Shown here: piece by piece, positions 38,142 through 54,067 of the stretch
Layout: each line of letters begins with the position of its first letter
How positions within the stretch are numbered: the first letter of the stretch is position 1
Source of the DNA: Aggregatimonas sangjinii
GTDB taxonomy: Bacteria; Bacteroidota; Bacteroidia; Flavobacteriales; Flavobacteriaceae
Length of the DNA stretch: 64,000 bases
Direction: 5' to 3'
Assembly (NCBI RefSeq): GCF_005943945.1
Contig: NZ_CP040710.1
Span: 4,013,501 to 4,077,500, forward strand
Position numbers and translations under genes: made by a program
Notes under the pieces: generated by a model
The model's database searches: none
The model's input: the letters and a program-made list of their open reading frames with translations, nothing else
Told to the model about the DNA's origin: nothing

Positions 38142-38519
38142 CTATTCAGAAAACCCTACATACACAAAATCGCCTTCTACTTTTACGGGATAGGTGGCAA
38201 TCGCTTCCAAATCGCCGTTTAAATGTTTTCCCGTTCTTAGCGAAAAGTTACTTTTATGCAGGGGACAGGCCACTTTTGCTTCCATATTCTCATCGCCGAT
38301 CATCCCACGGGACAATACCATTTCCATTTTATGCGGACATAAGTTTTGACAGGCGTACCAGGAGCCTTCCCGCGTAAAGTTGAATACGGCGATCTGCTTG
38401 TCTTTGTACTTGATACATGCCCCTCCATTTTTGGGGAATTTGGAGACCGCGGCCGTCTTGAACCAAATTTTTACTTCCTCTGGTCGTACGGTTTCGTAGG
38501 TGTTTAGATTGGCTGTCAT
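38142..38519 (-). CDS. nirD: Nitrite reductase small subunit NirD
   Basis: A 125-residue Rieske-type [2Fe-2S] protein. The ligand motifs are C-x-H in CQNLCPHKMEM and C-x2-H in CPLHKSNFSLRTGKHL. The sequence KIWFKTAAVSKFPKNGGACIKYKDKQIAVF fits NirD. It partners with NirB, encoded 106 bases upstream, in NAD(P)H-dependent reduction of nitrite to ammonium. It is followed closely by the DUF4202 gene. Confidence 0.93.
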   Translation of the reverse strand: MTANLNTYETVRPEEVKIWFKTAAVSKFPKNGGACIKYKDKQIAVFNFTREGSWYACQNLCPHKMEMVLSRGMIGDENMEAKVACPLHKSNFSLRTGKHLNGDLEAIATYPVKVEGDFVYVGFSE

Positions 38520-38625: not shown

Positions 38626-41139
38626 TCACGCCCACTCCTTAGGCATTTTCTGCTCTCTCAACGAAACGAACTCGATGGTCTCGTCGGTCTCGTCCGAATT
38701 GACAAAATGAGTATAGCGTTCCCTTATTTCAGGGGTTTCTACGGCTTCTTTCCACTCACATTTGTACGAGTCGACCAATGCCTGCATCTCGGCGTCCAGT
38801 TCATCACAAATTCCTAAGGAATCATTGATGACCACGTTCTGCAGGTAGGTAATGCCTCCTTCCAGTTTCTCGAGCCATGGGGCGGTACGTTGCAGCGGTA
38901 AAGCCGTTTTGATATAGAACATGATAAAACGGTCTACGTATTTTATCGCAGTTGCCTTGTCTACTTTTTCGGCAAGTAATACGGCATGCTTCGGATTCGC
39001 CCCACCGTTACCGCCCACATACACGTTCCATCCGCCTTCTACAGCGATGAAGCCAAAGTCCTTGCCACGCGCCTCGGCACATTCCCGAATACAACCCGAG
39101 ACGCCTCCCTTGAATTTATGAGGGGAGCGAATACCCTTATAGCGGTGTTCTATCTCGACGGCAAAGCTCACGCTTTCATCCATACCGTACCTACACCAGG
39201 TCGAACCCACGCAGCTTTTCACGGTACGCAATGATTTGCCATAGGCCTGGCCGGTTTCAAAGCCTTCTTTGATCAATTCTTCCCAGATCAAGGGCAGCTC
39301 GTGCAGCTTCGCCCCGAACATATCGATACGTTGCCCGCCTGTTATTTTGGTGTAAAGGTCATATTTTTGAGCTATCCTTCCCATGGCCATAAGTTGCTTG
39401 GGAGTGATTTCGCCACCCGCAACTCGAGGCACGACCGAGTAGGTACCGTTGCGCTGAATGTTCGCCAAATAGCGATCGTTCGTATCCTGGATCGCATTCT
39501 GCTTGTTGGCGGTTTCGTTGTAAATACTGGCGAAAATAGCGGCCACCGCAGGTTTGCACACTTCACAGCCGTGTCCTTTCCCCACCGTGTCGATCAGTTC
39601 GTCGAAATCTGCAATCCCCCTTAATTTTACGATATCAAAAAGCTCTTGACGTGAAAAATCGAAGTGTTCGCAAATACGTTCCTTGACGGTTTTACCCAAG
39701 GTCTTTAAACTTTCCTTCACCAAATCGGAAACCATAGGTTTACAGCCTCCACAGCCAGTAGTCGCTTTGGTAGCTTTTGCAACCGCTTTTACGGTTTCGT
39801 TGCCCTCGTCCAAAACGGAACAGCATACCGCTCCTTTGGTCACGGCTTCGCAAGAGCAAATGACGGCGGTATCGGGCAGATCCATCGCGCTGCCGAAAGG
39901 AGAGCCTCCCTCACCGCGCGCGCCCACGATCAACTCTTCGGCATTGTCCGGCAAGGGCATATTGTTCAGGTACATTTGGTGAAGTATGCTGTAGTCCTCC
40001 GCATCACCGACCATAATACCTCCCAAAAGGGTCTTGCCATCATGGCTTACATTGATTCGTTTGTAGACCCCTTTTGTTTTGTTCTCGTAGATGATCGACA
40101 GCCCCTTCTCGGCGGGCATGTAGGGTATACCAAAACTCGCCACATCTACCCCGATCAGTTTTAATTTAGTCGACATATCGATATCGTGCTGCATGACCAC
40201 TTCTTTCTCAAGAATACGGTTCACGGCCACCTCGGCCATCTCGTATCCTGGAGCGACCAAACCATAGATCATTTGATTATACAGGGCTACCTCGCCGATG
40301 GCATAAATATCGGGGTCGGATGTCTGCATTTTATCATTTACCACGATGCCACCACGTATGCCAACCTCTAAATCGCATGTTTTTGCCAACTCGTCCCTTG
40401 GGCGAATTCCTGCGGAAATCACCAGCATGTCAACGTTCAGGGTATCATCCTCACCAAAATCCATTCCCGTAATGGCACCGTTACCCAGAATGCGGTTCGT
40501 GGCCTTCCCCAAATGAATGTTGATGCCCATGGCTTCCAAGGTCAGTTGCAGCACATTACTGCTTCTGGAATCTAGCTGTCGCGGCATTAATTTTGGGGCG
40601 TACTCTACAACATGGGGCTCTAGGCCCATATCCATGACCGCTTTACCGGCTTCCAACCCCAAAAGACCTCCTCCCAAAATAGCGGCTTTACCATTTGGTT
40701 TAACACTTTTTACTTTTTCCGCATAGGCTAGCATCGCCTCTAGGTCCTCAATGGTGCGGTACACGAAAACCCCTTCCTTTTCCACTCCATTGATAGGAGG
40801 GACAAAGGGAACCGACCCTGTCGCTAGGACAAGATAATCATAGCCGATTTCCTGATCCCTACTTGTCGTTATGGTTTTGGTCTTCCGATGAATATCGGTA
40901 ACACGTTCATTGACCAATAGCTCAATACCGTTTTCGGAATACCAGTTCAAGGGTGCTAGCTCCAATGCCTTGGCATCCTGACTTTCGAAGAATTCGCTAA
41001 GGTGTACCCGGTCATATGCCGGACGAGGCTCTTCGCCAAACACGATCAATCTAAATTGTTCGCTTTCTTCACGCGAAACAAATTTCTCACAGAACTTGTA
41101 CCCCACCATTCCATTGCCAACAACAATAATAGTTTTCAT
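38626..41139 (-). CDS. nirB: Nitrite reductase large subunit NirB
   Basis: The ATG at 41139 (837 residues, MKTIIVVGNGMVGYKF) is preferred to the longer frame. The N-terminal half is a FAD/NAD(P)H oxidoreductase (GNGMVG, LATGSVPF, GGGLLGLEAGKA). Two BFD-like [2Fe-2S] segments follow (CSCEAVTKGAVC..CGGCKP and CEVCKP). The C-terminal half is the nitrite/sulfite reductase core with siroheme/[4Fe-4S] ligands in CVGSTWC and CIREC. It reduces nitrite to ammonium in the cytosol. First gene of the leftward operon, with a TACGTA operator pair 31 bases upstream. Confidence 0.97.
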   Translation of the reverse strand: MKTIIVVGNGMVGYKFCEKFVSREESEQFRLIVFGEEPRPAYDRVHLSEFFESQDAKALELAPLNWYSENGIELLVNERVTDIHRKTKTITTSRDQEIGYDYLVLATGSVPFVPPINGVEKEGVFVYRTIEDLEAMLAYAEKVKSVKPNGKAAILGGGLLGLEAGKAVMDMGLEPHVVEYAPKLMPRQLDSRSSNVLQLTLEAMGINIHLGKATNRILGNGAITGMDFGEDDTLNVDMLVISAGIRPRDELAKTCDLEVGIRGGIVVNDKMQTSDPDIYAIGEVALYNQMIYGLVAPGYEMAEVAVNRILEKEVVMQHDIDMSTKLKLIGVDVASFGIPYMPAEKGLSIIYENKTKGVYKRINVSHDGKTLLGGIMVGDAEDYSILHQMYLNNMPLPDNAEELIVGARGEGGSPFGSAMDLPDTAVICSCEAVTKGAVCCSVLDEGNETVKAVAKATKATTGCGGCKPMVSDLVKESLKTLGKTVKERICEHFDFSRQELFDIVKLRGIADFDELIDTVGKGHGCEVCKPAVAAIFASIYNETANKQNAIQDTNDRYLANIQRNGTYSVVPRVAGGEITPKQLMAMGRIAQKYDLYTKITGGQRIDMFGAKLHELPLIWEELIKEGFETGQAYGKSLRTVKSCVGSTWCRYGMDESVSFAVEIEHRYKGIRSPHKFKGGVSGCIRECAEARGKDFGFIAVEGGWNVYVGGNGGANPKHAVLLAEKVDKATAIKYVDRFIMFYIKTALPLQRTAPWLEKLEGGITYLQNVVINDSLGICDELDAEMQALVDSYKCEWKEAVETPEIRERYTHFVNSDETDETIEFVSLREQKMPKEWA

Positions 41140-41169
41140 GTGCTTCAATTTATAAAGGAAATACAATAT

Positions 41170-41185
41170 TACGTATTTATACGTA
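41170..41185 (-). promoter_or_regulatory. TACGTA-pair operator before nirB
   Basis: TACGTAT-TT-ATACGTA: two TACGTA cores 10 bases apart. On the minus strand the last core runs into TAATATTG, one change from the -7 consensus. A further single core lies at 41212-41219 on the cobA side of this divergent region. Confidence 0.7.
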
Positions 41186-41263
41186 TTTTTATACTGTTTA
41201 TATGAAAATAAATACGTATTCTTGTTGTGGAATCAATAATATAGCCCTCAAAATTTTGATAGG

Positions 41264-42037
41264 ATGAATAGCAGTATCACGCCGAAAGTAAGTCTAGTGG
41301 GTGCCGGTCCAGGCAGTGAAGACCTTATTACCGTTAGGGGTTTGCGCTTGCTGCAGGCGGCAGACGTTATTCTTTACGATGCCTTGGTCAGTAAAGAACT
41401 CATGGCACAAATTGATACTGCCATTCCAAAAATATACGTAGGAAAGCGCTGCAGTCAGCATTCCTTCACACAGGATGATATCAATCTGTTGCTCGTAGAA
41501 AATGCTTTTGCACATGGTCATGTGGTACGCTTAAAAGGAGGCGATCCCTTTGTATTCGGTAGGGCCCATGAAGAAATCGAATTTGTGGAATCTTTTGGTA
41601 TTCCCGTTTCGGTAGTACCCGGAATCTCAAGCGCCCTCGCCGTTCCCTCTAGCCAGGGCATACCCATGACACGACGCAATGTAAGCAGTAGCTTTTGGGT
41701 AATGACGGCTACCAAAAGGGATGGCTCCTTTTCAGAGGATTTAAAATATGCCTCGCGGTCCTCGGCCACCATGGTCATCTTAATGGGAGTTCGAAAATTA
41801 ATTGAAATTGTCAATGAGGTCAATAAATACCGACATGACACCACCCCGATCGCCCTAATTCAAAACGGAACCTTGAAAAATGAGCGCTGTACTATTTCGA
41901 CGCTAAATGGTATGCATGGGTTGATTGAAACCTTGGATATTTCGCTACCGGGCATCATAGTGATAGGGGACGTGGTCGCGGAACACCCCTCCTTTTTCGA
42001 GGAAGAGGTACGGCGCGTGCTCCATTCCAACTTATAG
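41264..42037 (+). CDS. cobA: Uroporphyrinogen-III C-methyltransferase
   Basis: A 257-residue SUMT. The SAM-binding and substrate motifs are complete: VSLVGAGPGSEDLITVRGLRLLQAADVILYDAL, VRLKGGDPFVFGRAHEE, VVPGISSALAVPSSQGIPMTRR. It makes precorrin-2 from uroporphyrinogen III, the first step toward siroheme for NirB. It is divergent from nirB and shares the TACGTA-bearing promoter region. The NrtA gene follows after 256 bases under its own promoter. Confidence 0.94.
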   Translation: MNSSITPKVSLVGAGPGSEDLITVRGLRLLQAADVILYDALVSKELMAQIDTAIPKIYVGKRCSQHSFTQDDINLLLVENAFAHGHVVRLKGGDPFVFGRAHEEIEFVESFGIPVSVVPGISSALAVPSSQGIPMTRRNVSSSFWVMTATKRDGSFSEDLKYASRSSATMVILMGVRKLIEIVNEVNKYRHDTTPIALIQNGTLKNERCTISTLNGMHGLIETLDISLPGIIVIGDVVAEHPSFFEEEVRRVLHSNL

Positions 42038-42052
42038 ACGGTACAGTCTATA
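42033..42052 (+). terminator. Hairpin at the cobA stop
   Basis: TATAGAC and GTCTATA pair around GGTACA, overlapping the stop codon, followed by CCTTGTTTTAT. A modest terminator at best. Confidence 0.4.
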
Positions 42053-42189
42053 CCTTGTTTTATATCCTTCAGCCTATTTCGGAAGTAATGGATTTCATGT
42101 TCAAGAAAAATTAGAAATCCTCAATTTAAAACTCCTATTTTTTTCAATCCTCGATATTTCGACTCCTCTTTAGTGCATCCTCGTAAAAA

Positions 42190-42196
42190 TACGTAT
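42190..42196 (+). promoter_or_regulatory. Single upstream TACGTAT half-site
   Basis: A lone TACGTAT, 32 bases (about three helical turns) upstream of the triple array before nrtA. Could be an additional contact for the same regulator. Confidence 0.4.
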
Positions 42197-42221
42197 AAAA
42201 CTCATTTTTCAAATATCTTAA

Positions 42222-42247
42222 TACGTACTAATACGTATTAATACGTA
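42222..42247 (+). promoter_or_regulatory. Triple TACGTA operator before nrtA
   Basis: TACGTA cores start at 42222, 42232 and 42242, exactly one helical turn apart, giving two overlapping 7-2-7 sites (TACGTAC-TA-ATACGTA and TACGTAT-TA-ATACGTA). The array covers the -33 to -7 zone of the promoter. Confidence 0.72.
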
Positions 42248-42253
42248 TTTTTG
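42246..42253 (+). promoter_or_regulatory. -7 box TATTTTTG of the nrt operon
   Basis: TATTTTTG matches TAnnTTTG; its first two bases are the end of the last TACGTA core. It lies 40 bases before the nrtA start. Confidence 0.6.
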
Positions 42254-42293
42254 ACACATTAAGAACATGTATAACCACGTAAACCTATAGTAT

Positions 42294-43679
42294 ATGAAAT
42301 CAGTTTTGACAAAAGCATCCCTGTTTTTGACCGCGGTCGCACTCTTGGCGGCATGTGGTGGAAAAGATGCTAAAAAGGCAACAATTGAAGCCGCCGAAGA
42401 AGGAGTCGCTTCGAAAACAAAACAATTGGATATTGAAAAACCGCAACTCACTTTCGGATTCATCAAATTGACGGATATGGCACCTTTAGCCATTGCCAAG
42501 GAAAAAGGATTTTTCGAGGATGAAGGTCTTTTTGTTTCGGTAGAAGCACAATCGAACTGGAAAAATGTACTCGATCGGGTCATTGACGGACAATTGGATG
42601 GCTCGCATATGCTCGCAGGGCAACCTATCGCAGCCGGGGCCGGATTTGGTCGTCAAGCGCAGTTGGTGACGCCTTTTTCCATGGATTTAAATGGAAACGG
42701 CATTACCGTATCGAACGACGTCTGGTCAAAAATGAAGCCGAATGTGCTGATGGACGAGGAAGGAAAGCCTATCCATCCGATCAAGGCGGATGCCTTAAAA
42801 CCCGTAATTACGGATTATAAGAATAGTGGGAAGCCTTTTAAAATGGGAATGGTTTTTCCCGTATCTACCCACAATTACGAAATACGCTATTGGCTGGCCG
42901 CTGCCGGTATTCATCCTGGAATGTACACTGCCGATAACGTACAAGGACAAATCGATGCAGAGGTATTACTATCCGTCACGCCACCACCACAGATGCCCGC
43001 AACCTTGGAATCAGGAACTATCTATGGGTATTGTGTCGGTGAACCATGGAATCAACAGGCGGTGTTCAAGGGCATAGGAGTGCCGGTGGTGACCAACTAT
43101 GATATCTGGAAAAACAATCCGGAAAAAGTATTCGTGATGACAAAGAAGTTCGTTGATGACTATCCGAATACGGCCATCGCGGTAACGAAAGCATTGATTC
43201 GGGCCGGAAAATGGTTAGATGAGCCTTCGAACCGGGCCGAAGCCGTTAAAATCCTATCCATGTCGCAATACGTAGGTGCCCCGGAAGAGGTGTTGGCGAA
43301 TTCGATGACCGGGACCTTTGAATTTGAAAAGGGAGACAAACGCGATATGCCCGATTTTAACGTCTTCTACAAATACCACGCGACCTACCCCTTCTACTCC
43401 GATGGTATCTGGTTCTTGACACAGATGCGCAGATGGGGACAAATTCCCGAGACAAAAACAGCGGAATGGTATGGAGAAACCATTAAAGACATTTACCGTC
43501 CGGATATCTGGAAAAAGGCAGCCGATCTCTTGGTCGCCGAAGGCCAAATTCCTGCGACCGACATTCCGGAAACCGACGGTTACAAAACGGCGACCACCGA
43601 TTTTATCGATGGCACTTCCTATGATGCCAAAGACCCCATTGGCTATATCAATAGTTTCTCTATCGGAAACAAGGATTGA
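42294..43679 (+). CDS. nrtA: Nitrate ABC transporter, substrate-binding lipoprotein
   Basis: A 461-residue NrtA/CmpA-type binding protein anchored as a lipoprotein (LLAACGG). Family segments are clear: [78 protein letters not shown] and [24 protein letters not shown]. Binds nitrate and perhaps nitrite in the periplasm. First gene of the operon nrtA, nrtB, two ATPases and a porin, preceded by the TACGTA array. Confidence 0.93.
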
Positions 43680-43715
43680 ATTTAGCACCCTACATCGAAG
43701 CAAAAGCATACTATT

Positions 43716-44816
43716 ATGGAACAAGACATCACACTAAAAAAGGAAAAACAAGGCCTTGCCTTCTTAAGGAATTTTATAGCCAAGGCAGCTCCTCGATTTC
43801 AAAAAGGAGACCTGTTCTCCTCGTTCAAGAAAACGGGAATCACCATCCTATCGATCGCGCTGTTTTTAGGTTTATGGCACTTGGGCGCCAAGGCACTTTA
43901 TAATATAGAGGCAACCTACAAAATCGAGAAGGCCATGACCGAACAGGGGCCCGAAGCGGCGGCGGCGGAGCGGACTTGTATCGAATCCGGAAATAGTGGT
44001 TGCCAACCGAACACCTTGCCGTCACCTACCCAAGTATGGGCTTCGCTGCAGTCGTTGATCGCCGATCATAAATTGATCAATGTGAAGAAAGCGGCCTTTG
44101 CGGAAAAGATGGCCGCAACCAACGCAAAATTAATAGCAGAAGGCAAAGATGCCATCGTGTATACGGGCAGGGCTTCCTTTGTAGAAATTGTTTTGACCAG
44201 TATAAAAACGGTTTTTGCCGGCTTTTTATTGGCGCTTCTAATTGCGGTACCCATCGGTGTCATTATAGGTTTGAGCCCGTCATTGCGGAGTGCGTTCAAT
44301 TGGTTTATCCAAGTTTTTAAACCGGTTTCCCCCGTAGTGTGGTACCTGCTCGTTTTTATGATCGTCAAAACCCTATACATTGGCGACAGTACCGATAACG
44401 CCTTCGTGATTTCCTTTATTAGTGTCGGTTTGTGTGCCATGTGGGCGACGCTCGTCAATACGGCAATGGGGGTGTCTTCGGTGGATAAGGATTACATCAA
44501 TGTGGCGAAGGTTTTAAAACTGGGTACTTTTCAAAAGGTATTCAAGGTAATACTCCCGTCCTCCTTGCCCTTGATTTTTACCGGGTTGCGGATTACCCTT
44601 TCCGTGGCATGGATGGTCTTGATCGCCATTGAACTTTTGGCGCAAAGCCAAGGTCTCGGACTCTTCGTTTGGGAAGAATTTCAAAACGGGGCCAACGACT
44701 CCAATTCCAAGATTATCGTAGCGATGTTCGTTATCGGCATCATCGGCTTTCTTTTGGATCGCTTGATGTTAACGGTACAGAACATGGTGTCTTTCAATAA
44801 AAACGAAGGTGTGTAA
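43716..44816 (+). CDS. nrtB: Nitrate ABC transporter permease
   Basis: A 366-residue permease. After a first helix (GITILSIALFLGLWHLGAKAL) there is a long soluble insert (about residues 65-145) before the BPD_transp_1 core. The core shows LTSIKTVFAGFLLALLIAVPIGVIIGLS, the EAA-like loop VAKVLKLGTFQKVFKVILPSSLP and ITLSVAWMVLIAIELLAQSQGLG, as in NrtB/SsuC-type permeases. The insert is longer than in typical cyanobacterial NrtB. 36 bases after nrtA. Confidence 0.93.
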   Translation: MEQDITLKKEKQGLAFLRNFIAKAAPRFQKGDLFSSFKKTGITILSIALFLGLWHLGAKALYNIEATYKIEKAMTEQGPEAAAAERTCIESGNSGCQPNTLPSPTQVWASLQSLIADHKLINVKKAAFAEKMAATNAKLIAEGKDAIVYTGRASFVEIVLTSIKTVFAGFLLALLIAVPIGVIIGLSPSLRSAFNWFIQVFKPVSPVVWYLLVFMIVKTLYIGDSTDNAFVISFISVGLCAMWATLVNTAMGVSSVDKDYINVAKVLKLGTFQKVFKVILPSSLPLIFTGLRITLSVAWMVLIAIELLAQSQGLGLFVWEEFQNGANDSNSKIIVAMFVIGIIGFLLDRLMLTVQNMVSFNKNEGV

Positions 44817-44863
44817 AAAGAATGAACCTCTCATTTCGAGGGCGGAACCAATAACTTGAAAAT

Positions 44864-45703
44864 ATGGCCTATTTAGAACTGAACAATATCCAAAAATCCT
44901 ACGGAGAAGGAGCGAACAGAACACAGATACTATCCAATATCAACCTTTCCATCGAAGAAGGGGAATTTGTTGCCATAGTCGGGTTTACGGGAAGCGGAAA
45001 AACCACCTTGGTGAACTTGATCAACGGACTCCTACAACCCACAAGTGGTACGGTTCTATTTAAAGGGGAACCTGTAACCGGTACGAGCCATGAACGCGGT
45101 GTTATTTTTCAAAATTATTCCTTATTGCCTTGGCTAACCGTAGGTCAGAATGTTTATATGGCCGTCAAAGAGGCTTTTCCAAAAGAGAACAAAGCCTTTT
45201 TGAAAAAACGGGTGAACGACTATGTGGCCATGGTAAGTTTGTCCCCGGCCATCAATAAACGACCAAAAGAACTGTCCGGCGGTATGCGCCAGCGCGTTGC
45301 CGTGGCCAGGGCATTGGCCATGAACCCGGAGATGATCATTATGGATGAACCTCTAGGTGCCTTGGATGCTTTGACCCGCGGCAACCTGCAGGATGAGATA
45401 TTGAACATATGGAGCCAGGACAAGCGCACCGCACTGTTGATTACGAACGATGTGGATGAAGGAATCTATATGGCCGACAGGATCATCCCCTTAAAGCCAG
45501 GTCCCAATGCTACCTTGGGTCCGGAGTTTAAAATCGATATTGAGCGACCACGCGATAAAACGGCATTGAACGACAATCCGAGTTTCAAAAAGACACGGAA
45601 TGCCATTATCGAATATTTAATGGATATCGGTGAAGCACGCAAATCGGTTTCCGATGAAGAATACTTGCTTCCGGATATTGCCCCGAAAAGTTTTGTCGCC
45701 TAA
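44864..45703 (+). CDS. Nitrate ABC transporter ATPase, NrtC-like (switch His replaced)
   Basis: A 279-residue ABC ATPase. Walker A GFTGSGKTT, Q-loop (IFQNYSLLPWLTV), signature LSGGM and Walker B IIMDEPLGALD are present. The switch histidine is replaced: LLITNDVDEG instead of the usual THDVDE (codon AAC). The protein is an ATPase domain with a short tail and lacks the NrtA-like C-terminal domain of cyanobacterial NrtC. It presumably pairs with the ATPase encoded next. Confidence 0.9.
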   Translation: MAYLELNNIQKSYGEGANRTQILSNINLSIEEGEFVAIVGFTGSGKTTLVNLINGLLQPTSGTVLFKGEPVTGTSHERGVIFQNYSLLPWLTVGQNVYMAVKEAFPKENKAFLKKRVNDYVAMVSLSPAINKRPKELSGGMRQRVAVARALAMNPEMIIMDEPLGALDALTRGNLQDEILNIWSQDKRTALLITNDVDEGIYMADRIIPLKPGPNATLGPEFKIDIERPRDKTALNDNPSFKKTRNAIIEYLMDIGEARKSVSDEEYLLPDIAPKSFVA

Positions 45704-45716
45704 AAAATAGAAAACC

Positions 45717-46538
45717 ATGAGTACCACAACAGTACAAGGAACCATATCGGAGAACGGAATCGTATTTCCTTCCAAAGTAATGCTTGATCTGTCAAAATTG
45801 AAAAAAATCTATCCGACGCCCAAAGGCGATTATGTGGTCTTGGAGGATTTGGATTTGCAGATCATGAAAGAAGAATTCGTGACCATTATCGGGCATTCCG
45901 GATGCGGGAAGACCACCATGCTCTCGATGATCGCAGGTTTAAACCCTATTTCCGGAGGAAATATCGCAGTCTTGGGAAATCCCGTGAAAGGTCCGGGACC
46001 GGATAGAGGTGTCATTTTTCAATCCCCCAGTCTAATGCCATGGATGACCGCTTTGGAAAATGTGCTTTTAGGGGTCAACAAAGTTTTCCCACATGCGAGC
46101 AAGGTAGAACGAAAAGATATCGCAAAATACTATTTGCACAAGGTAGGTCTGGACGGGGCCTTTAGTAAAAGGGCGTTGGAATTATCCCAAGGGATGCAGC
46201 AACGTGTCGGTATCGCAAGGGCCTTTGCCATTAAACCCAAAGTGCTGCTATTGGACGAACCTTTTGGTATGCTCGATTCGTTGACCAGAGGAGAGCTACA
46301 GGACATCCTGATAGAAATCTGGAATAGGGAAAAAATTACAGCCGTTATGATCACCCACGACGTAGATGAAGCCATTTTCCTAGCCGATCGCGTGGTGATG
46401 ATGACCAGTGGACCAAGGGCTAAAATCGGAGATATCCTAGACATCGGATTCGAACGGCCAAGAACCCGAAAATCAGTATTGGAGCATGACGATTATTACA
46501 CCTACCGAAAACATTTGATCGACTTTTTAGAACACTAA
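45717..46538 (+). CDS. nrtD: Nitrate ABC transporter ATPase, NrtD-like
   Basis: A 273-residue ABC ATPase. Walker A GHSGCGKTT, Walker B LLLDEPFGMLD and the switch His (MITHDVDEAIFLADRV) are intact; the signature reads LSQGM rather than LSGGM. Starts 13 bases after the preceding ATPase gene. The two ATPases likely form an asymmetric heterodimer under the NrtB permease. Confidence 0.93.
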   Translation: MSTTTVQGTISENGIVFPSKVMLDLSKLKKIYPTPKGDYVVLEDLDLQIMKEEFVTIIGHSGCGKTTMLSMIAGLNPISGGNIAVLGNPVKGPGPDRGVIFQSPSLMPWMTALENVLLGVNKVFPHASKVERKDIAKYYLHKVGLDGAFSKRALELSQGMQQRVGIARAFAIKPKVLLLDEPFGMLDSLTRGELQDILIEIWNREKITAVMITHDVDEAIFLADRVVMMTSGPRAKIGDILDIGFERPRTRKSVLEHDDYYTYRKHLIDFLEH

Positions 46539-46578
46539 CCCGGTCATTTAACAGACGAACGCTTAAAAAATCCAAATT

Positions 46579-47871
46579 ATGAAAAAGCAATACACACTTA
46601 TTTTCCTAGTATTCCTATCGATTCAATTGGTAAATGCGCAATTCACGCTTGATGGGCAATTTAAACCAAGAACCGAATACCGAAATGGTTTCGGAAGCAT
46701 CATTCCCGATGCCGCCGATGCCGGCTATGCCATTTCTACCAGAATACGCTTGAACACAGGCTATACCTTTGACTCCTATCAATTTTATGTAAGTCTGCAG
46801 GACGTAATGGTTTGGGGTGAAAACAGACAGATTTTGCCCGATGACCAAAATGATTCTTTCGCCGTTTTCGAGGCATGGGCAAATATCAATCTAGGAAAAG
46901 GATGGTCTACAAAGTTGGGCCGTCAAATACTATCGTACGACGATCAACGTATTTTCGGCGGTTTAGACTGGGCACAACAAGCACGTAATCACGATGCAGG
47001 CCTATTAAAATACAAAAAGGAAAAGTTTATGATGGATATCGGGCTGGCGTTCAGTCAAGATTTCGATAACCCCACCGGATTTCAGTCTGTGGGAACGGCC
47101 TACAATACGAGCGGTTTTTTTAGCTATAAAACGATGCAGTACGCCTATCTGAAACAACAATGGAATAGTATTTCCGGAAGTCTGCTGCTTTTGAACAATG
47201 GTTTTCAAAACTTTACGGGCGATGCAGATGCCCAAGTTGCCGACGGTACGAGCAACCTACAGACCTTAGGAACCCACTTAAACTTCAGTAAAGGAAGTTT
47301 TGGCGCGGCCTTGAACGCCTTTGTGCAAACTGGGGAACGCCAAAATCAAGTCGATGTAAAAGGAGCCTACTTATTGGGTCTCGACCTCAACTATAAAGTA
47401 ACGGCAAAAATAGGTTTGGGTGTTGGGGTAGAAGTAATCAGTGGCAATGATGGTGAAGCGGGTGAAACTGGAGCTTTCTTTCCGTTATTTGGTACCAATC
47501 ATAAATTCAACGGGTTTATGGATTATTTCTATGTGGGCAACCATGCCAACTCCATTGGATTGTTCGATGTGCATGCCAGTGCCAAGTTTGCGTTGGGCGA
47601 AAAATCGAGCCTATTGGTAAAAGTACTCAATTTCAGTGGCGAACAAGAATTGCCTAGTGGTGAAAAGGCATTGGGCACCGAGGTCGACCTGGTCTTTGCA
47701 AAGAACTTTAAAGGATACAACGTAGCCATAGGCTACTCCCAAATGTTCGCTAGCGATGGCATGTACGAATTAAAAGGTGTGAGTGAAGCCGACGCAGCAG
47801 GCACCCAAAATTGGGCTTGGGTGCAACTGACCATGAAACCTAAATTCTTGAACACTGCAAAAGCAGAATAA
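46579..47871 (+). CDS. Outer-membrane porin of the alginate-export (AlgE-like) family
   Basis: A 430-residue protein with signal peptide ending ..IQLVNAQ. The body is an amphipathic beta-barrel: PRTEYRNGFGSIIPDAADAGYAISTRIRLNTGY, AWANINLGKGWSTKLGRQILSYDDQRIFGGLDWAQQARNHDAGLLKY. This pattern is shared with alginate-export-type porins of Bacteroidota. Encoded 40 bases after nrtD, it most likely lets nitrate or nitrite through the outer membrane rather than alginate; that is inference from context. Confidence 0.82.
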   Translation: MKKQYTLIFLVFLSIQLVNAQFTLDGQFKPRTEYRNGFGSIIPDAADAGYAISTRIRLNTGYTFDSYQFYVSLQDVMVWGENRQILPDDQNDSFAVFEAWANINLGKGWSTKLGRQILSYDDQRIFGGLDWAQQARNHDAGLLKYKKEKFMMDIGLAFSQDFDNPTGFQSVGTAYNTSGFFSYKTMQYAYLKQQWNSISGSLLLLNNGFQNFTGDADAQVADGTSNLQTLGTHLNFSKGSFGAALNAFVQTGERQNQVDVKGAYLLGLDLNYKVTAKIGLGVGVEVISGNDGEAGETGAFFPLFGTNHKFNGFMDYFYVGNHANSIGLFDVHASAKFALGEKSSLLVKVLNFSGEQELPSGEKALGTEVDLVFAKNFKGYNVAIGYSQMFASDGMYELKGVSEADAAGTQNWAWVQLTMKPKFLNTAKAE

Positions 47872-47883
47872 GAAATCACGACG

Positions 47884-47930
47884 CTTCGATTGGCTATCAT
47901 GACCCTTTTTGGTTGTGGTAGCTTTCGAAG
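47884..47930 (+). terminator. Long imperfect hairpin after the nrt operon
   Basis: CTTCGA pairs with TCGAAG, GCTA with TAGC and ACC with GGT around CTTTTT, 12 bases after the porin stop. The following TTTAAAT is only a weak T tail. Confidence 0.55.
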
Positions 47931-48198
47931 TTTAAATAGAAAATGCAACGACAAGTTCAAATCTAAAATTAAATCCACACTCAATTTTACAATCCTGTCG
48001 TCCTGAGCGCGATTAAAGGCTAAGGAACACCAATGGCCGTGTGCCTGTACTTTAGCCAGTTCACCCATGCTCAGAAGCGCAATCTTCGGTTTACCCCGCT
48101 TATTCAATGAGAATAGTGCACAGTTGTAAAGCATCCGCTATGGAAATAGAACTTTCGTACTTGCCACCTCGAACCTCGTTTACCCTCGTACTTCCCAC
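47931..48198. other. Spacer with degenerate repeats
   Basis: Holds a worn copy of the CATCCTGAGCGCAGTCGAAGG element near 47998-48025 and, at 48154-48214, a low-complexity run of TCGTACTT and TCGAACCT words of a type common between flavobacterial genes. No gene seen. Confidence 0.5.
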
Positions 48199-48229
48199 TT
48201 TGTATTTCGTACCTGGAAACCTATCTTTG
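48199..48229 (+). promoter_or_regulatory. Promoter of the NarL-type regulator gene
   Basis: TTTG at 48199-48202, a 19-base spacer and TATCTTTG at 48222-48229. No TACGTA core is present, so the regulator gene appears to be expressed independently of the island's operators. Confidence 0.72.
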
Positions 48230-48249
48230 CCCGTATAACTAGGTATATT

Positions 48250-48918
48250 TTGAACCAAATAACCATTGTTTTAGTAGACGACCATTCCCTAGTGCGCGAT
48301 GGTATTCGTGCCCTTTTGGAAAGTGAGCAAGATTTGAATGTCATTGGCGAAGGCTCCGATGGTAGGGAGGCGCTCACGCTCGTGGAAGAGAAAAATCCCG
48401 ACATTCTAATTATCGATATTCGTATGCCCCATATGACCGGTATCGAAGCGGTTGAAAAATTGAACGCCTCGCAGTCCGACGTCAAATGCATCATTCTCTC
48501 GATGCACGATTCGGAGGAGTATATATTGCAATCGGTTGCCGCAGGTGCCAAAGGCTATTTGCTCAAAGACACCGGTAAAACAGAATTCATAAAAGCGATT
48601 CATGCCGTTCAAAGTGGAGACAAATACTACAGTGGCGATATCTCGAACGTATTGGTAAACAGTTTGCTGAACCCAAGCACGAAGATTTCCAAAAACTCAA
48701 ATAGCGAAGGGCGAACGAGCAAGCCATTTGACCTGACCAATAAAGAAATCCAAGTCTTGGAGTTGGTTTTATCGGGGCTCACCAACAAACAAATTTCTGA
48801 AAAACTACAAAATAGCAAGCGTACCGTCGAAACCCACCGCTTTAATCTCATGCGCAAGATGGATGTCAAAAATTTGATGGATCTTTCCAAAAAGGCCCAG
48901 GAATTCGGGTTGGTATAG
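48250..48918 (+). CDS. NarL/FixJ-type response regulator
   Basis: A 222-residue regulator that starts at TTG 48250, 20 bases behind its -7 box; translation from there gives the normal MNQITIVLVDDHSLVRDG start. The receiver has the acidic pair D10-D11, phospho-Asp in DILIIDIRMP (near 56) and Lys in KGYLLKD. The C-terminus is a LuxR-type HTH (FDLTNKEIQVLELVLSGLTNKQISEKL..KRTVETHRFNLMRKM). It lies between the nitrate transporter and reductase genes. The kinase at 35642 is its probable partner. Confidence 0.92.
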   Translation: MNQITIVLVDDHSLVRDGIRALLESEQDLNVIGEGSDGREALTLVEEKNPDILIIDIRMPHMTGIEAVEKLNASQSDVKCIILSMHDSEEYILQSVAAGAKGYLLKDTGKTEFIKAIHAVQSGDKYYSGDISNVLVNSLLNPSTKISKNSNSEGRTSKPFDLTNKEIQVLELVLSGLTNKQISEKLQNSKRTVETHRFNLMRKMDVKNLMDLSKKAQEFGLV

Positions 48919-49013
48919 CATGAATTTCAAAACTAGATTTTGAGAATCATATTTTGGCCCTCTGGTTTTTAGTAATTCCCTAGAATAAAGGCCTACTATT
49001 GCCATATTATCAC

Positions 49014-49029
49014 TACGTATTAGTACGTA
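49014..49029 (+). promoter_or_regulatory. TACGTA-pair operator before the nitrate reductase gene
   Basis: TACGTAT-TA-GTACGTA, cores 10 bases apart, 53 bases before the start codon. The second core runs into TATTTTTC, one change from TAnnTTTG, the same arrangement as before nrtA and nirB. Confidence 0.7.
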
Positions 49030-49081
49030 TTTTTCTAATTTGCTTATTCATATTTGATGGTTTTCATCAAAAGAAGGAGCG

Positions 49082-52000
49082 ATGCAGAAAAAGAAAACGG
49101 AAAAGACAATTTGCAGCTACTGCGGTGTTGGTTGCGGTATTTTGGTCGATGTTGATGCCAAGGGTACCATTTCGGTAGCAGGCGACCCGGACTATCCTTC
49201 GAATAAGGGCATGCTATGCTCAAAGGGCCGTAATTTGAACTATGTCGCGCAAGATACCAGTGACCGTATTTTGTACCCTGAAATGCGGTGGAGTAGAAAC
49301 CACCCCTTGCAAAAAGTATCTTGGGATACCGCTTTTGAGCGTGCAGCAGCGGTTTTCAAGAGCATTATCGCCAAACACGGTGCCGATAGTATTGGCTTTT
49401 ACGTTTCCGGCCAATGCTTGACCGAAGAATATTACCTCGCCAACAAAATTACCAAAGGCTTTATCGGCACTAATAATATCGATACCAACTCTCGCCTTTG
49501 TATGAGTTCGGCGGTGGTCGGTTACAAAAAGACAGTAGGCGAGGATTCCGTTCCCATTTCCTATGAAGATATCGAACTTGCAGATACGTTTCTAATCGCA
49601 GGGGCCAATCCGGCTTGGTGCCATCCCATCTTATACCGACGGTTGGAACAGCGAAAAGCCGATAACCCTGAGGTAAAAGTGATTGTCGTAGACCCCAGAA
49701 AAACACAAACCGCAGCTGCGGCCGACCTACACCTGCAAATTTTACCCGGTACCGATGTAATCTTGTTCAACGCTATCGCACGGTGGTTGATCGAAAAACG
49801 AAAAACCGATAAAACGTTTATCAAAAAGTATACGGCAAATTACGAGGCGGTCAAACAATTGGCCTTTTCCCTTTCCATTCGGCAAGCAGCGGAAAAGTGC
49901 GGTATCCTTGCTTCCGAAATCCGCAAAGCGGCACAATACATCGGCGAGGCAAGCAAATTCCTGAGTATGTGGACGATGGGACTTAATCAAAGTGTGATCG
50001 GGGTATCCAAAAATGTATCGCTTTTAAATTTATCGCTGTTGACAGGGCAAATCGGAAAACCCGGTTGCGGTCCGTTTTCATTAACAGGGCAACCCAATGC
50101 GATGGGGGGCCGCGAAGTGGGCGGAATGGCCAACTTATTGGCTGCTCATAAAGACTTGGGCAATCCCATCCACAGAAAAGAAGTGTCCGACTTTTGGGGA
50201 GGTAAAGAAATCGATGGTGAACCCGGCTATACCGCCACCGAAATGTTCGATGCCTTGGAAAATGGCAAGCTAAAAGCCATCTGGATCATCTGCACCAACC
50301 CTGCCGTAAGCATGCCCAACGTACACAAAGTGGAGCGCGCTTTGAAAAATGCCGCCTTTGTAGTGGTTCAGGACATATCGCATAACTCCGAGACCACCAA
50401 ATTTGCCGACCTGCTTTTACCGGCTGCAGGTTGGTTGGAGAAGGAAGGAACAATGACGAATTCCGAACGGCGTATCAGTTACCTGCCCAAAGTAATCGAC
50501 CCACCCGGTGAAGCCTTGCCAGATGTTGAAATTCTTTGGCGTTTTGCCCAAGCTATGGGTTTTAAGGGCTTCGATTACACCACCGCAAGCGAGGTATATG
50601 ACGAGCATTGCTTGCTGACCAAGGGCACCAATATTGATATTTCGGGACTCAACTATGAACGCTTAAAAAAAGAAGGTAGTTTTCAGTGGCCCGTACCTCA
50701 TAAAACACATTCCGGTACGCCGCGATTATTTACCCATCACGAGTTTCATACGAACGATAAAAAAGCCCATTTTAACGTACCTCAAAGTCTGTATAATAGT
50801 TCGGAGCAAACGAATGGTGATTTCCCATTGATTTTGAACACCGGCCGTATTCGAGACCAATGGCATACCCGAACCAAAACGGGAAAAGTCAAACGTCTGT
50901 TGACACATATTCCAGAGCCCTATCTCGAAATGAATAAAATAGATGCCTTCCTTCGAAAACTAAAGGAGGGCGATATTGCCATCATCAAAAGTCGTAGAGG
51001 GCAGGTGCAGGTAAAGGTGAGGGTCAATCTCGATATTCGTGAGGGTGTTGTTTTTCTGCCCATGCATTGGGGCAAGGTGTTGCAGAACGATTTTGGCAGG
51101 GCCAATAACATCACTAATGATTTGGTCGATCCAGTATCAAAAGAACCTGATTTTAAATATTGCGCGGTACAGGTAGAAAAGTTCAAGAAGCCGGAACAAA
51201 AAATAGTGGTCATTGGTGCCGGTGCCGCGGCCTATAGGTTTATACAATCCTACCGAGAAAAGAACAGAAAAGACTCGTTGCATGTTTTTTCAATGGAGAA
51301 AGATCCATTCTATAACCGGGTACTACTGCCAGAATATGTCAACGATGAACTTTCTTGGGAGTCTTTGGAAAAGCTAAAGAAAGGCGAACTGGAAAAATTG
51401 AACGTTGTCCTTCATCCGGGAATCGGGATAACCCAAATAGATAAAACAGCGAAAAAAGTCATCGACACCAAAGGTACCGAGCACACATTTGACCTTCTCG
51501 TAATGGCTACGGGAAGCCGCGCCTTTGTACCCAGTGATGTAAAGATGGATGTTCCAGGGCGTTTCACCATGCGTGAAAGGGGCGATGCCGACAAATTGAA
51601 AAAGTATCTACGGAATACCGGTCTGAGTGCTGGAGAACAGCATGTGGTCATCGTTGGAGGCGGTCTGCTCGGACTGGAGCTTGCCGCGGCCCTTAAGAAA
51701 ATTCACATCAACATCAGCATCGTGCAGCGAGCTCCCCGTTTGATGGAACGCCAATTGGATAATATCGCAAGCAGATTATTGGCAGAGGATGTGATCGAAA
51801 GAGGTATCAACATTTATTTTGACAATGAAGTGAGTACCGTTTTTGAAGAAAAAGTAAGTCCCAGTTCTTTGCTTGTGAATCTTAAAACGGGGCGTACCAT
51901 ACAGTGCAATGCTATTGTATATGCCATAGGCACCCGCCCCAACATCGAACTGGCCAAGCGGGCAAATTTGGAAACCAGTCGGGGCGTATTGGTCAATGGG

Positions 52001-52612
52001 TACTTACAGACCAGTGTGCCATCTATTTTCGCTTTGGGCGAAATTGCGGAGTTCAACAATTCCCTTTTCGGCATTACTTCCGCTGCAGAACAGCAGGCAG
52101 ATATTGCCGCCAACTACATTTTGGGCGATTTTAGTAGTATTTACAACGGATCGGTTCTCATGAATATCCTAAAGTTCGAAAACCTTGATCTATGTAGTAT
52201 CGGTATGGTGAACGCCCCAAAGGATGACAGCAGTTACGAGGAGGTTATTTTGATGGATGTAAGTAAGCGTTTCTATAAGAAGTGTATTGTAAAGAACGAC
52301 ACCTTAAAGGGGGCGATTTTAATGGGCGACAAAAACGAATTTGCCGAATTCAAACGGCTGATAGAGGACGAAATAGAACTTTCGGAAAAGAGAGATGAAC
52401 TGTTAAGGGGTGCTTCGAATACCTTTCCCCTAAAGGGTAAACTAGTATGTTCCTGTAGCCAGGTGGGTGAGGGAAATGTGCTCGATGCCATCGCCAATGG
52501 TTGTTCCGATTTTAACAAGTTATGTTCGGAAACTGGTGCAGGCCTAGGCTGTGGTAGCTGCAAACCGGAAGTAAAAGCGTTATTGATCAAACAACCAGCA
52601 GTGGCCAGCTAA
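49082..52612 (+). CDS. nasA: Assimilatory nitrate reductase fused to NirB-like flavoprotein and BFD domain
   Basis: A 1176-residue fusion. Residues 1-690 are a molybdopterin (bis-MGD) nitrate reductase with a [4Fe-4S] site at C11, C14, C18 and C46, the LCMSSAVVGYKKTVGEDSVP segment and the molydopterin dinucleotide-binding end (LILNTGRIRDQWHTRTKTGKV). Residues about 705-1060 are an NAD(P)H/FAD oxidoreductase like the N-terminus of NirB (VVIGAGAAAYRF, MATGSRAF, VIVGGGLLGLELAAAL). A BFD-like [2Fe-2S] end (CSCSQVGEGN..CGSCKPEVK) closes it. The fusion would carry electrons from NAD(P)H to nitrate within one chain. Confidence 0.94.
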   Translation: MQKKKTEKTICSYCGVGCGILVDVDAKGTISVAGDPDYPSNKGMLCSKGRNLNYVAQDTSDRILYPEMRWSRNHPLQKVSWDTAFERAAAVFKSIIAKHGADSIGFYVSGQCLTEEYYLANKITKGFIGTNNIDTNSRLCMSSAVVGYKKTVGEDSVPISYEDIELADTFLIAGANPAWCHPILYRRLEQRKADNPEVKVIVVDPRKTQTAAAADLHLQILPGTDVILFNAIARWLIEKRKTDKTFIKKYTANYEAVKQLAFSLSIRQAAEKCGILASEIRKAAQYIGEASKFLSMWTMGLNQSVIGVSKNVSLLNLSLLTGQIGKPGCGPFSLTGQPNAMGGREVGGMANLLAAHKDLGNPIHRKEVSDFWGGKEIDGEPGYTATEMFDALENGKLKAIWIICTNPAVSMPNVHKVERALKNAAFVVVQDISHNSETTKFADLLLPAAGWLEKEGTMTNSERRISYLPKVIDPPGEALPDVEILWRFAQAMGFKGFDYTTASEVYDEHCLLTKGTNIDISGLNYERLKKEGSFQWPVPHKTHSGTPRLFTHHEFHTNDKKAHFNVPQSLYNSSEQTNGDFPLILNTGRIRDQWHTRTKTGKVKRLLTHIPEPYLEMNKIDAFLRKLKEGDIAIIKSRRGQVQVKVRVNLDIREGVVFLPMHWGKVLQNDFGRANNITNDLVDPVSKEPDFKYCAVQVEKFKKPEQKIVVIGAGAAAYRFIQSYREKNRKDSLHVFSMEKDPFYNRVLLPEYVNDELSWESLEKLKKGELEKLNVVLHPGIGITQIDKTAKKVIDTKGTEHTFDLLVMATGSRAFVPSDVKMDVPGRFTMRERGDADKLKKYLRNTGLSAGEQHVVIVGGGLLGLELAAALKKIHINISIVQRAPRLMERQLDNIASRLLAEDVIERGINIYFDNEVSTVFEEKVSPSSLLVNLKTGRTIQCNAIVYAIGTRPNIELAKRANLETSRGVLVNGYLQTSVPSIFALGEIAEFNNSLFGITSAAEQQADIAANYILGDFSSIYNGSVLMNILKFENLDLCSIGMVNAPKDDSSYEEVILMDVSKRFYKKCIVKNDTLKGAILMGDKNEFAEFKRLIEDEIELSEKRDELLRGASNTFPLKGKLVCSCSQVGEGNVLDAIANGCSDFNKLCSETGAGLGCGSCKPEVKALLIKQPAVAS

Positions 52613-52621
52613 AGAACGATT

Positions 52622-54067
52622 ATGAATGATGATTTACATCGCATATTGATTCCGGGTGGGGTTACGTCGCCAGGCGAATTGAAAGATATTATTCTAATGT
52701 TGGAAACCGCAGGCCTACGTGAGGTTTACTTTGGTTCTCGGCAAGATTTGTTGATTCCCTTGAGTAATGCCAATGAAGAATTCTTGGAAAACACGGCCAA
52801 ATTCAATGCCGAAATCATCGGAGAACGTAGTTACCAGAATATTGTTTGTTCCTATGTGTCGGCCGATATTTTTGATATGACCTATTGGTTGAAAGGCTCG
52901 ACGTACCTCTACATTTTAGAAGGTTTTGATTATGCGCCCAAACTAAAAATCAATATTACCGATCCCAAGCAAAGACTAGTTCCCATTTTTAGTGGCAATC
53001 TCAATTTCATTGCCTCAAACAGCGAGGATTACTGGTATTTGAATGTAAGATTACCCCATTGGAAAACATCGGCATATTATCCCGTTCTGATTTACAGTTG
53101 GGATATTAGTACCATCTCCAAAGCGATCGAAGACCTATATGAAGACATACAGGATGTAGAAGAACTCTTCTTCGTCCTGAGCAAACAATTGGACACCAAC
53201 AACAAAACCATTGAAAAGGAGCTTAAAATAGAGTACACCACTTTTCCGTACTACGAAGGCATGAACCGTATGGGACTGGACCAATACTGGCTCGGTCTAT
53301 ATTGGAGGAATAACCGATACAATCTCAAATTTTTGAAGGAGTTCTGCGGATTTTGTCTGGACAATAGCATCGGTAAAATATGTATCACGCCTTGGAAGTC
53401 CTTTATCGTAAAAGGAATTAAAAAAGATAGCAGGCTAGAACTAGAACGGTTTTTAGGCCAAACCGGAATCAATGTAAGACATTCCCAACTCGAAATGAAC
53501 TGGCATGTACCCGTAGATGATACCGATGCGCTGGAACTCAAAAAATTCTTGGTTCGAAGTTTTGATCAAAACGACATTAGCACGTATGGCCTTACCTTCG
53601 GGATCAGTAACGACGTCGGGAAACGCTCTCATTTTTCATCGGTGATCATTGAAAAAAACAGTCCGCCCACTATAGTTTTGGATTTTGACGTACGACCTTC
53701 CTATAACGTACTCCATTTTGAAAACTTCGATCCAAATACCCAGGAATATATCTCCTACGCCCAAGATATCGATAAAATCGAGCTTCCTGGTCTTTTGATG
53801 GAGCTAAGCAAGAAATATTTTGAACAATTGGGCATGCCTTCAAAAAAAGATGAAGTGAAACCTCAAAGTAGTCACGGGCACAGCAATAGGGTGGTCTATC
53901 AGTGCGAGGCATGTTTGACGGTTTATGACACGCTGTATGGAGATACTAAGGCGGGTATCGCCGAGGGCACAGTCTTCAAAGACCTACCGGGCGAGTATTC
54001 ATGTTCCGTTTGCGATGCTCCAAAAAAGAATTTTAAGAGGGTTGAATTACAGGTCGATAGTCTTTAA
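52622..54067 (+). CDS. Nitrite/sulfite-reductase-like protein with C-terminal rubredoxin
   Basis: A 481-residue cytosolic protein starting 9 bases after the nitrate reductase stop. The C-terminal 55 residues are a rubredoxin (CEACLTVYD near 426 and SCSVCDAPKKNF near 462, with two CxxC pairs). The N-terminal 420 residues contain two half-domains like the ferredoxin-like repeats of nitrite/sulfite reductases (IPGGVTSPGELKDIILMLETAGLREVYFGSRQDLLIPL; IGKICITPWKSFIVKGI). The siroheme/[4Fe-4S] cysteine set (C-x5-C and C-x3-C) was not found. An electron carrier or docking subunit for the reductases is likely; catalysis is doubtful. Confidence 0.82.
   Translation: MNDDLHRILIPGGVTSPGELKDIILMLETAGLREVYFGSRQDLLIPLSNANEEFLENTAKFNAEIIGERSYQNIVCSYVSADIFDMTYWLKGSTYLYILEGFDYAPKLKINITDPKQRLVPIFSGNLNFIASNSEDYWYLNVRLPHWKTSAYYPVLIYSWDISTISKAIEDLYEDIQDVEELFFVLSKQLDTNNKTIEKELKIEYTTFPYYEGMNRMGLDQYWLGLYWRNNRYNLKFLKEFCGFCLDNSIGKICITPWKSFIVKGIKKDSRLELERFLGQTGINVRHSQLEMNWHVPVDDTDALELKKFLVRSFDQNDISTYGLTFGISNDVGKRSHFSSVIIEKNSPPTIVLDFDVRPSYNVLHFENFDPNTQEYISYAQDIDKIELPGLLMELSKKYFEQLGMPSKKDEVKPQSSHGHSNRVVYQCEACLTVYDTLYGDTKAGIAEGTVFKDLPGEYSCSVCDAPKKNFKRVELQVDSL

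Follow-up and report, generated by a model that had tools for sequence, protein, structure and literature searches.

A conserved 16-bp inverted repeat at the nitrate-assimilation promoters of Aggregatimonas sangjinii and its relatives, a predicted operator of a NarL/FixJ-family response regulator

What are the paired TACGTA words in the nitrate-assimilation island of Aggregatimonas sangjinii, and which protein might read them? The island lies in a 64,000-nucleotide stretch of contig NZ_CP040710.1 (positions 4,013,501 to 4,077,500; hereafter the window), and an earlier note on this DNA, made from its letters alone, had taken TACGTA cores spaced 10 bases apart in front of nirB, nrtA, and the nitrate reductase gene nasA as the marks of a local regulon. 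We located the cores exactly where they had been described, both as pairs (41170/41180, 42222/42232/42242, and 49014/49024) and singly (42190 and 41213). Our reading, to which we assign a probability of roughly 0.6, sees in every pair a copy of a single operator, the 16-bp inverted repeat TAMGTA-N4-TACKTA (the dyad), to which the NarL/FixJ-family response regulator from 48250 would attach as a dimer, with the PilJ-domain histidine kinase encoded at 35642 as its partner. The operator's targets would be nirB, cobA, nrtA, nasA, and the regulator's own gene, joined in relatives by a gene for an MFS transporter. A dimer on the DNA would, at most copies, overlie the -33 region, or the spacer together with the -7 box, or the transcription start. 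The regulator would most likely be a steric repressor and autorepressor, relieved via the kinase by nitrate or nitrite.

The window contains 19 copies of TACGTA, an approximately twofold excess over 100 dinucleotide shuffles (8.66 ± 2.79; 19 was reached by none). The exact dyad, TACGTA-N4-TACGTA, matches at four overlapping positions in the whole genome of 4,723,614 bases, and all of them are in the island promoters of nirB, nrtA (two), and nasA. The reversed control pattern has no match in the same genome.

Two sets of loci were used to follow the dyad into relatives. Set A (L005 to L084) consists of loci around relatives of the 48250 regulator, of which 80 were kept out of 216 relatives; set B (L100 to L139) consists of 40 stretches chosen by hand from regulator and nrtA matches in searches of other genomes, and within it L129 to L132 have type-A regulators (63-82% identity). 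The starts counted here and below are not all independent, because stretches L156 and L157 duplicate L104 and L103 and some source genomes of the two sets possibly belong to one species. A scan upstream of the nas, nir, and nrt genes of relatives, as proposed in the earlier note, found the exact dyad within 250 nt of 64/73 nasA, 39/57 nirB, and 11/48 nrtA starts in set A. Where it was missing, the best match had a single mismatch at 8 of 9 nasA, 15 of 18 nirB, and all 37 nrtA starts, and these variants led to the generalised form TAMGTA-N4-TACKTA. The latter is found at 230 of the 247 nirB, nrtA, and nasA starts of both sets (300 nt upstream to 30 nt inside the gene), a count that is not blind, because its M and K were picked after the sequences had been inspected; it is checked by the exact-dyad counts and by a tally made with no preset motif, in which the commonest inverted hexamer pair was again TACGTA with a gap of 4 (123 of 258 starts). 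An MFS gene between cobA and algE in relatives also bears the dyad (those of L006, L010, and L165 match Pfam MFS_1); the L006 cluster has no nrtA-D matches, and L010 has both transporters.

Could chance, or the AT-rich composition of promoters, account for these matches? Some excess is expected, because TACGTA is palindromic and overlaps the TA of -7 boxes, but three scrambled dyads of equal degeneracy matched at none of the 247 starts, and wrong gaps of 3, 5, 6, 8, and 14 matched at only 4, 6, 4, 6, and 12 of them. Operon-internal genes have no dyad (kinase 0/36, nirD 0/57, nrtB 0/75, and rubredoxin gene 0/91 starts), and algE has it at 1 of 86 starts. Together with the genome-wide count and the dyad-less promoters of islands that have no regulator (0/14 starts, below), these figures leave no room for chance, which we reject as extremely improbable.

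Each unit is an inverted repeat of 16 bp whose centre is rich in A and T. Because TACGTA is its own complement, orientation is visible only in the variants: across 387 upstream regions, the pairs in which both halves are asymmetric comprised 32 inverted (TAAGTA...TACTTA), no everted, and one direct arrangement, and when only one half is asymmetric, 110 pairs fit an inverted repeat and 3 do not. Centres were TTAA in 61, TTTA in 60, and TAAA in 32 of 283 dyads. The spacing of half-sites has maxima at 10, 21, 31-33, and 43, and lesser, off-rhythm ones at 13, 25, and 56; helical phasing of the half-sites is only suggested by these maxima, because related promoters are not independent. Set A mostly has TACGTA and set B mostly TAAGTA/TACTTA; a shift via the recognition helix was rejected as the cause, the helix being nearly the same in both.

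If the dyad is read by the 48250 regulator, the two should occur together. We surveyed 299 Flavobacteriaceae genomes at a regulator threshold of E <= 1e-60 and found nrtA in 61, all 61 of which also have a relative of the regulator; 16 genomes have the regulator without nrtA, and 222 have neither. A wider survey of 247 genomes of the class (nasA threshold E <= 1e-250) found nasA in 14, ten of them outside the family. Two of these ten (L140 and L141) encode in the island a regulator of 50-52% identity and have dyads there, which in L141 stand at several places, nirB included. Eight other nasA stretches (L142 and L144 to L150) have no regulator and no dyad. Counted per start over 200 nt, the dyad is present at 234 of 258 starts, compared with 0 of 14 in the eight regulator-less stretches, and the 258 include a locus, L143, that belongs to one of the eight genomes (G526) and lies on another contig, where a 41% identical regulator with a different recognition helix adjoins nirB and there is no dyad. 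The recognition helix S[KVR]RTxExHR[FY][NS][LM]M is kept in 22 aligned regulators from dyad-bearing genomes; in five homologues from dyad-less loci, D or H replaces E and the residues after HR differ. The co-occurrence that the earlier note had suggested checking, and its link between the site and the encoded two-component system, are thus both supported.

The dyad, often imperfect, is also at the regulator's own promoter. A TAnnTTTG box lies within 120 nt in 71 of 84 regulator promoters (regulators at least 68% identical, or the window's own), and in 24 of these 71 a dyad with 0-1 mismatch follows 0-2 nt 3' of the box. None of 216 boxed shuffles had such a dyad, which is the useful comparison because 1,464 of 1,680 shuffles contained no -7 box. 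Among the 28 regulator starts of set B, a dyad lies within 300 nt at 15. In the window, the box and degenerate dyad at 48222-48245 are an addition to the sites of the earlier note.

Which family of proteins would recognise such a site? The 48250 product combines a receiver with a GerE helix-turn-helix (HTH) domain, which makes it a NarL/FixJ (LuxR-type HTH) response regulator, and at full length its best PDB match is NarL (3.5e-34). Its gene has an apparent TTG start, and TTG stands at the equivalent place in several relatives. The earlier note had read the cores as inverted heptamers in the 7-2-7 arrangement of NarL and NarP, and the likenesses are real: NarL is the closest solved structure at full length, the inverted repeat is of similar length, and the genes are nitrate genes. 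E. coli NarL/NarP sites are described as 7-2-7 TACYYMT heptamers in the accessible portion of PMC4886647. In its literal form this reading lacks support, as TACYYMT-N2-AKRRGTA was absent from all 258 starts and the literal consensus was rejected; single TACYYMT words occur at 105 of the 258, in part by chance, given the AT-richness of promoters. The dyad has G at half-site position 4, where TACYYMT needs C or T (PMC4886647, same portion). It lies, moreover, at the core promoter (from about -35 to +19, counted from inferred starts) and not upstream in the position of an activator, and the helix aligned with TVKVHVK of NarL is TVETHRF here. The two K and the V of TVKVHVK are base contacts of NarL.

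When the DNA-binding domain was compared alone, the closest solved structures were those of EsrB (2.4e-12), SsrB (3e-10), and FixJ (4.7e-9), with NarL in 16th place (3.2e-5). EsrB and SsrB, the best matches, resemble it in the helix TVETHRxNxMRK but serve other regulons. FixJ is alike in its helix, RTVEVHR, and in its DNA site: in the excerpts of PMC4999443, the rhizobial protein has a half-site class GTAMGTAG from systematic evolution of ligands by exponential enrichment, which contains TAMGTA, and a 16-bp fixK site, TAAGTAATTTCCCTTA, equal to the dyad in length and left half. The full GTAMGTAG stands at only 6 of the 258 starts; the TAMGTA core in a 16-bp imperfect palindrome is what the 234 starts with the generalised dyad have. 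Half-site and DNA-binding domain together look more FixJ-like than NarL-like. FixJ differs in responding to oxygen with FixL as partner and fixK as target, as opposed to the nitrate-assimilation context and PilJ kinase here, and its sites at fixK are upstream ones, at -69/-44 and -57/-31 (PMC4999443, same excerpts). TACGTAG was not found among the matches listed in a literature search on FixJ.

A kinase/regulator pair of this kind is already in print; the site itself we did not find described. The accessible part of PMC8199190 names a nitrate two-component pair of Bacteroidetes narHK/narRR, and the window's pair agrees with it, compared by description only: a PilJ/NarX-type sensor with PAS and without a HAMP or GAF match (Pfam, E <= 0.001), beside nitrate genes, and a NarL-like regulator. 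That part names the pair, and we found in it no DNA site, targets, or mode of action. The kinase motif N[VIL]AGxQR is present in 43 of 44 fetched kinases, and in many set-B loci the kinase gene adjoins the regulator gene, just 5' of it. As the earlier note had supposed, no described motif of this form in Bacteroidota nitrate control emerged: we found no description of a DNA site for nitrate-assimilation control in Bacteroidota among the titles listed by a literature search that left most subscription papers outside, and nothing on TACGTA together with nitrate and Flavobacter.

How the regulator would act is suggested by where the dyads lie. The -7 box was set at -12 to -5, following Flavobacterium psychrophilum (PMC9723704, in the part available), so that transcription starts are inferred, and the offset was taken from the dyad start to the TA of the box. 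The earlier note had the last core of each array sharing its TA with a -7-like box; this is so for nrtA (TATTTTTG, perfect) and, allowing one mismatch, for nirB (TAATATTG), as also for the single half-site at cobA (TATTCTTG); at nasA the more conserved box is further down. That box, TAATTTGC, is the probable -7 box of nasA, in the TAnnTTGY form described for F. psychrophilum (PMC9723704, same part). At nirB the offset is 14 nt at 57/57 set-A and 14/16 set-B sites (dyad at about -26 to -11). At nasA it is 22 or 23 nt in 34 of 70 set-A sites (TAnnTTGY; about -35 to -19) and 14 in 6, and 14 again in 7 of 18 set-B sites. For the regulator gene it is -8 in 6 of 8 set-A sites (about -4 to +12) and 22-25 in 11 of 15 set-B sites. 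For nrtA, over both sets, it is -13 to -18 in 53 of 89 sites (about +4 to +19), 14 in 6, and 24-27 in 11. Overall the dyads fall into classes at about -35/-19, -26/-11, or -4 to +19, and for nrtA, nasA, and the regulator gene the class differs between lineages; nrtA of the window is in the upstream and spacer classes, that of many relatives in the downstream class. Of the two modes that the earlier note had left open, this variable position favours steric repression with autoregulation over NarL-style activation, because switching between classes should be tolerable for a repressor but not for an activator whose contact with polymerase is at a set position.

The opposite mode deserves consideration. 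The regulator might bind the dyad but activate on nitrate, from an unusual core-promoter position in which it replaces the -33 contact. NarL/FixJ proteins are usually activators, the nirB dyad keeps its place at every set-A site, and nirB promoters have no conserved -33 element upstream of the dyad, as is often so for activator-dependent promoters. However, nrtA dyads are mostly 3' of the -7 box, those of set-A regulator genes begin right after it, and a single activator contact could hardly serve -35, -26, and +4. Furthermore, nrtA promoters with the dyad after the box carry a separate site at a fixed distance. At 54 of 76 nrtA starts the dyad is 3' of the box, at a distance that varies from 5 to 10 nt; in 37 of these 54, a TG-N8-CA repeat starts exactly 35 nt 5' of the box, and in 43, AAAAAGA stands 52 or 53 nt before it. 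At the other 22 nrtA starts, the final 150 nt lack AAAAAGA. A fixed upstream repeat beside a variable dyad therefore seems to represent a separate activator site with the dyad as a movable operator, and we regard activation from the dyad as unlikely. The 54 starts, for instance those of L010, L106, and L109 (not in the window), thus have in common a block of AAAAAGA and an inverted repeat ATG-N8-CAT centred at about -41.5, a Crp/Fnr-like geometry; -41.5 is the class II position of Crp/Fnr activators, and the block is possibly such an activator site.

Several observations count against repression by the 48250 regulator through the dyad. Set-B nasA starts are mostly without a nearby dyad, and 9 of 26 have none within 300 nt. 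No recognised -7 box is present at 30/70 set-A nasA and 12/61 set-A nrtA sites, so that their position class is not assignable, and the missing -33 element at nirB would suit a promoter that depends on activation. In the NarX/NarL system nitrate promotes binding, and a repressor of nitrate assimilation would for that reason be odd. L140 has the regulator, but its two dyads precede the regulator gene and an algE-like gene, and none is directly at nrtA or nasA. The 0/14 contrast is confounded with ancestry, because the regulator-less islands also belong to a nasA clade further away (57-59% identity), and we found no genome that had lost the regulator alone. Finally, the exact pattern occurs in 148 of the 299 family genomes, one of which has 41 copies. 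By hand tally it is in 56 of 77 genomes with the regulator and 20 of 21 with a regulator at least 63% identical (own genome included), but also in 92 of 222 without; the bare presence of the pattern in a genome was rejected as a clean test.

The earlier note had named frequent occurrence at unrelated genes as one finding that would overturn its regulon, and in part this is what we see. In the window's own genome the exact dyad is in the island only; in a number of other Flavobacteriaceae, unrelated places are among the matches listed, besides the regulator-less genomes just given. The strict form TAMGTAWNNWTACKTA has 38 copies in 11 of 14 chosen genomes, and eight of these have all their copies within a single stretch no longer than about 22 kb; G083 and G169 have 4/6 and 3/4 copies in one stretch, and in G001 four copies are spread over three contigs. 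It was not found in three genomes of the same genus, G002, G005, and G006, the last two of which have no regulator or nrtA at the thresholds used. The reversed control gave 10 matches in the 14 genomes. The dyad is thus conserved in orthologous promoters and confined, or nearly so, to the island in its own genome and in most relatives examined, in agreement with a local regulon. Repeats of TACGTAGTTCTACGTA, several of them clustered, occur in G113, G135, G279, and G292, genomes without the regulator at 1e-60, and appear to be an unrelated repeat.

Those regulator-less genomes, and the confounding of regulator with island clade, also suit a different explanation, in which another transcription factor, encoded elsewhere and co-inherited with the islands, binds the dyad while the 48250 regulator has other targets; association is not binding. 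Yet the island genes examined showed no second regulator, the dyad stands at the regulator's own promoter, and its symmetry, length, and TAMGTA core suit a FixJ-type HTH. We judge a foreign factor improbable, somewhat more so than activation, and the 48250 regulator probably to be the binder of the dyad. A more specific form of the repressor reading inverts the usual logic: the nitrate-free regulator would repress the core-promoter dyads of the assimilation operons and of its own gene, nitrate would release it, extra half-sites on a single helix face, at spacings of about 10, 21, 32, and 43 bp, would assist, and the DNA code would be FixJ-like, not NarL-like. We put this forward tentatively, as an idea with rather less than an even chance.

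The features of the island are collected in Table 1.

Table 1. Genes, dyads, and -7 boxes of the nitrate-assimilation island (window coordinates)
Feature	Position	Strand	Basis or remark
Histidine kinase, narHK-like (PilJ, PAS, HisKA_3, HATPase)	35642..37498	-	Pfam
nirD (presumed, from position)	38142..38519	-	homologues in relatives
nirB, nitrite reductase large subunit	38626..41139	-	ATG at 41139
nirB -7-like box TAATATTG	41164..41171	-	one mismatch to TAnnTTTG; TA in common with dyad; conserved
nirB promoter dyad, TACGTA-N4-TACGTA	41170..41185	.	set A: -7 box identically placed, 57/57 nirB sites
Single half-site before cobA	41213..41218	.	kept in set-A nirB/cobA spacer consensus
cobA -7-like box TATTCTTG	41217..41224	+	one mismatch; TA in common with half-site
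cobA-like uroporphyrinogen methyltransferase (name presumed)	41264..42037	+	homologues in relatives
Single TACGTA, right half of 2-mismatch dyad 42180-42195	42190..42195	.	upstream of nrtA array
nrtA promoter array, three half-sites at 10-base spacing	42222..42247	.	two overlapping dyads
nrtA -7 box TATTTTTG	42246..42253	+	perfect TAnnTTTG; TA in common with last half-site
nrtA, nitrate ATP-binding cassette transporter binding protein	42294..43679	+	NMT1_2
nrtB, nrtC, nrtD (names presumed)	43716..46538	+	homologues in relatives
Alginate_exp-type outer-membrane channel gene, end of nrt operon	46579..47871	+	Pfam
-7 box TATCTTTG before regulator gene	48222..48229	+	perfect
Degenerate dyad CCCGTATAACTAGGTA immediately 3' of regulator-gene box	48230..48245	.	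3 mismatches to TAMGTA-N4-TACKTA
Response regulator, receiver + LuxR-type HTH (narRR-like)	48250..48918	+	Pfam Response_reg 3.1e-29, GerE 2.9e-18
nasA promoter dyad	49014..49029	.	exact dyad at 64/73 nasA starts of relatives
nasA probable -7 box TAATTTGC, TAnnTTGY form	49036..49043	+	more conserved than dyad-overlapping box
nasA, assimilatory nitrate reductase fused to NAD(P)H-dependent FAD domain	49082..52612	+	Pfam
Rubredoxin-domain protein, downstream of nasA	52622..54067	+	Pfam

Among the neighbouring genes, the Alginate_exp-type gene is 3' of nrtD in many relatives too and is a candidate nitrate channel. A gene for a DUF4202 protein (37530-38120) separates nirD from the kinase gene, as it does in many relatives, and perhaps belongs to the nitrite pathway. 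Several set-B nasA leaders (L106, L108, L109, and others) share a long AT-rich block (GGTATTCAGAATAATAAAG...), with no dyad nearby; in L106, L108, and L109 this block has no Rfam match. An RNA element was considered: at gathering scores, Rfam searches of four sources returned only two tRNAs in the window and Flavo-1 in L108 (283-361).

Nitrate assimilation by marine Flavobacteriia bears on the nitrogen cycle of the ocean. The 16-bp dyad provides a marker with which the regulon can be found across the class, and it ties a kinase/regulator pair that has been named but not characterised to its likely targets. It also raises the question of whether a NarL/FixJ-family regulator may work here as an operator-bound repressor.

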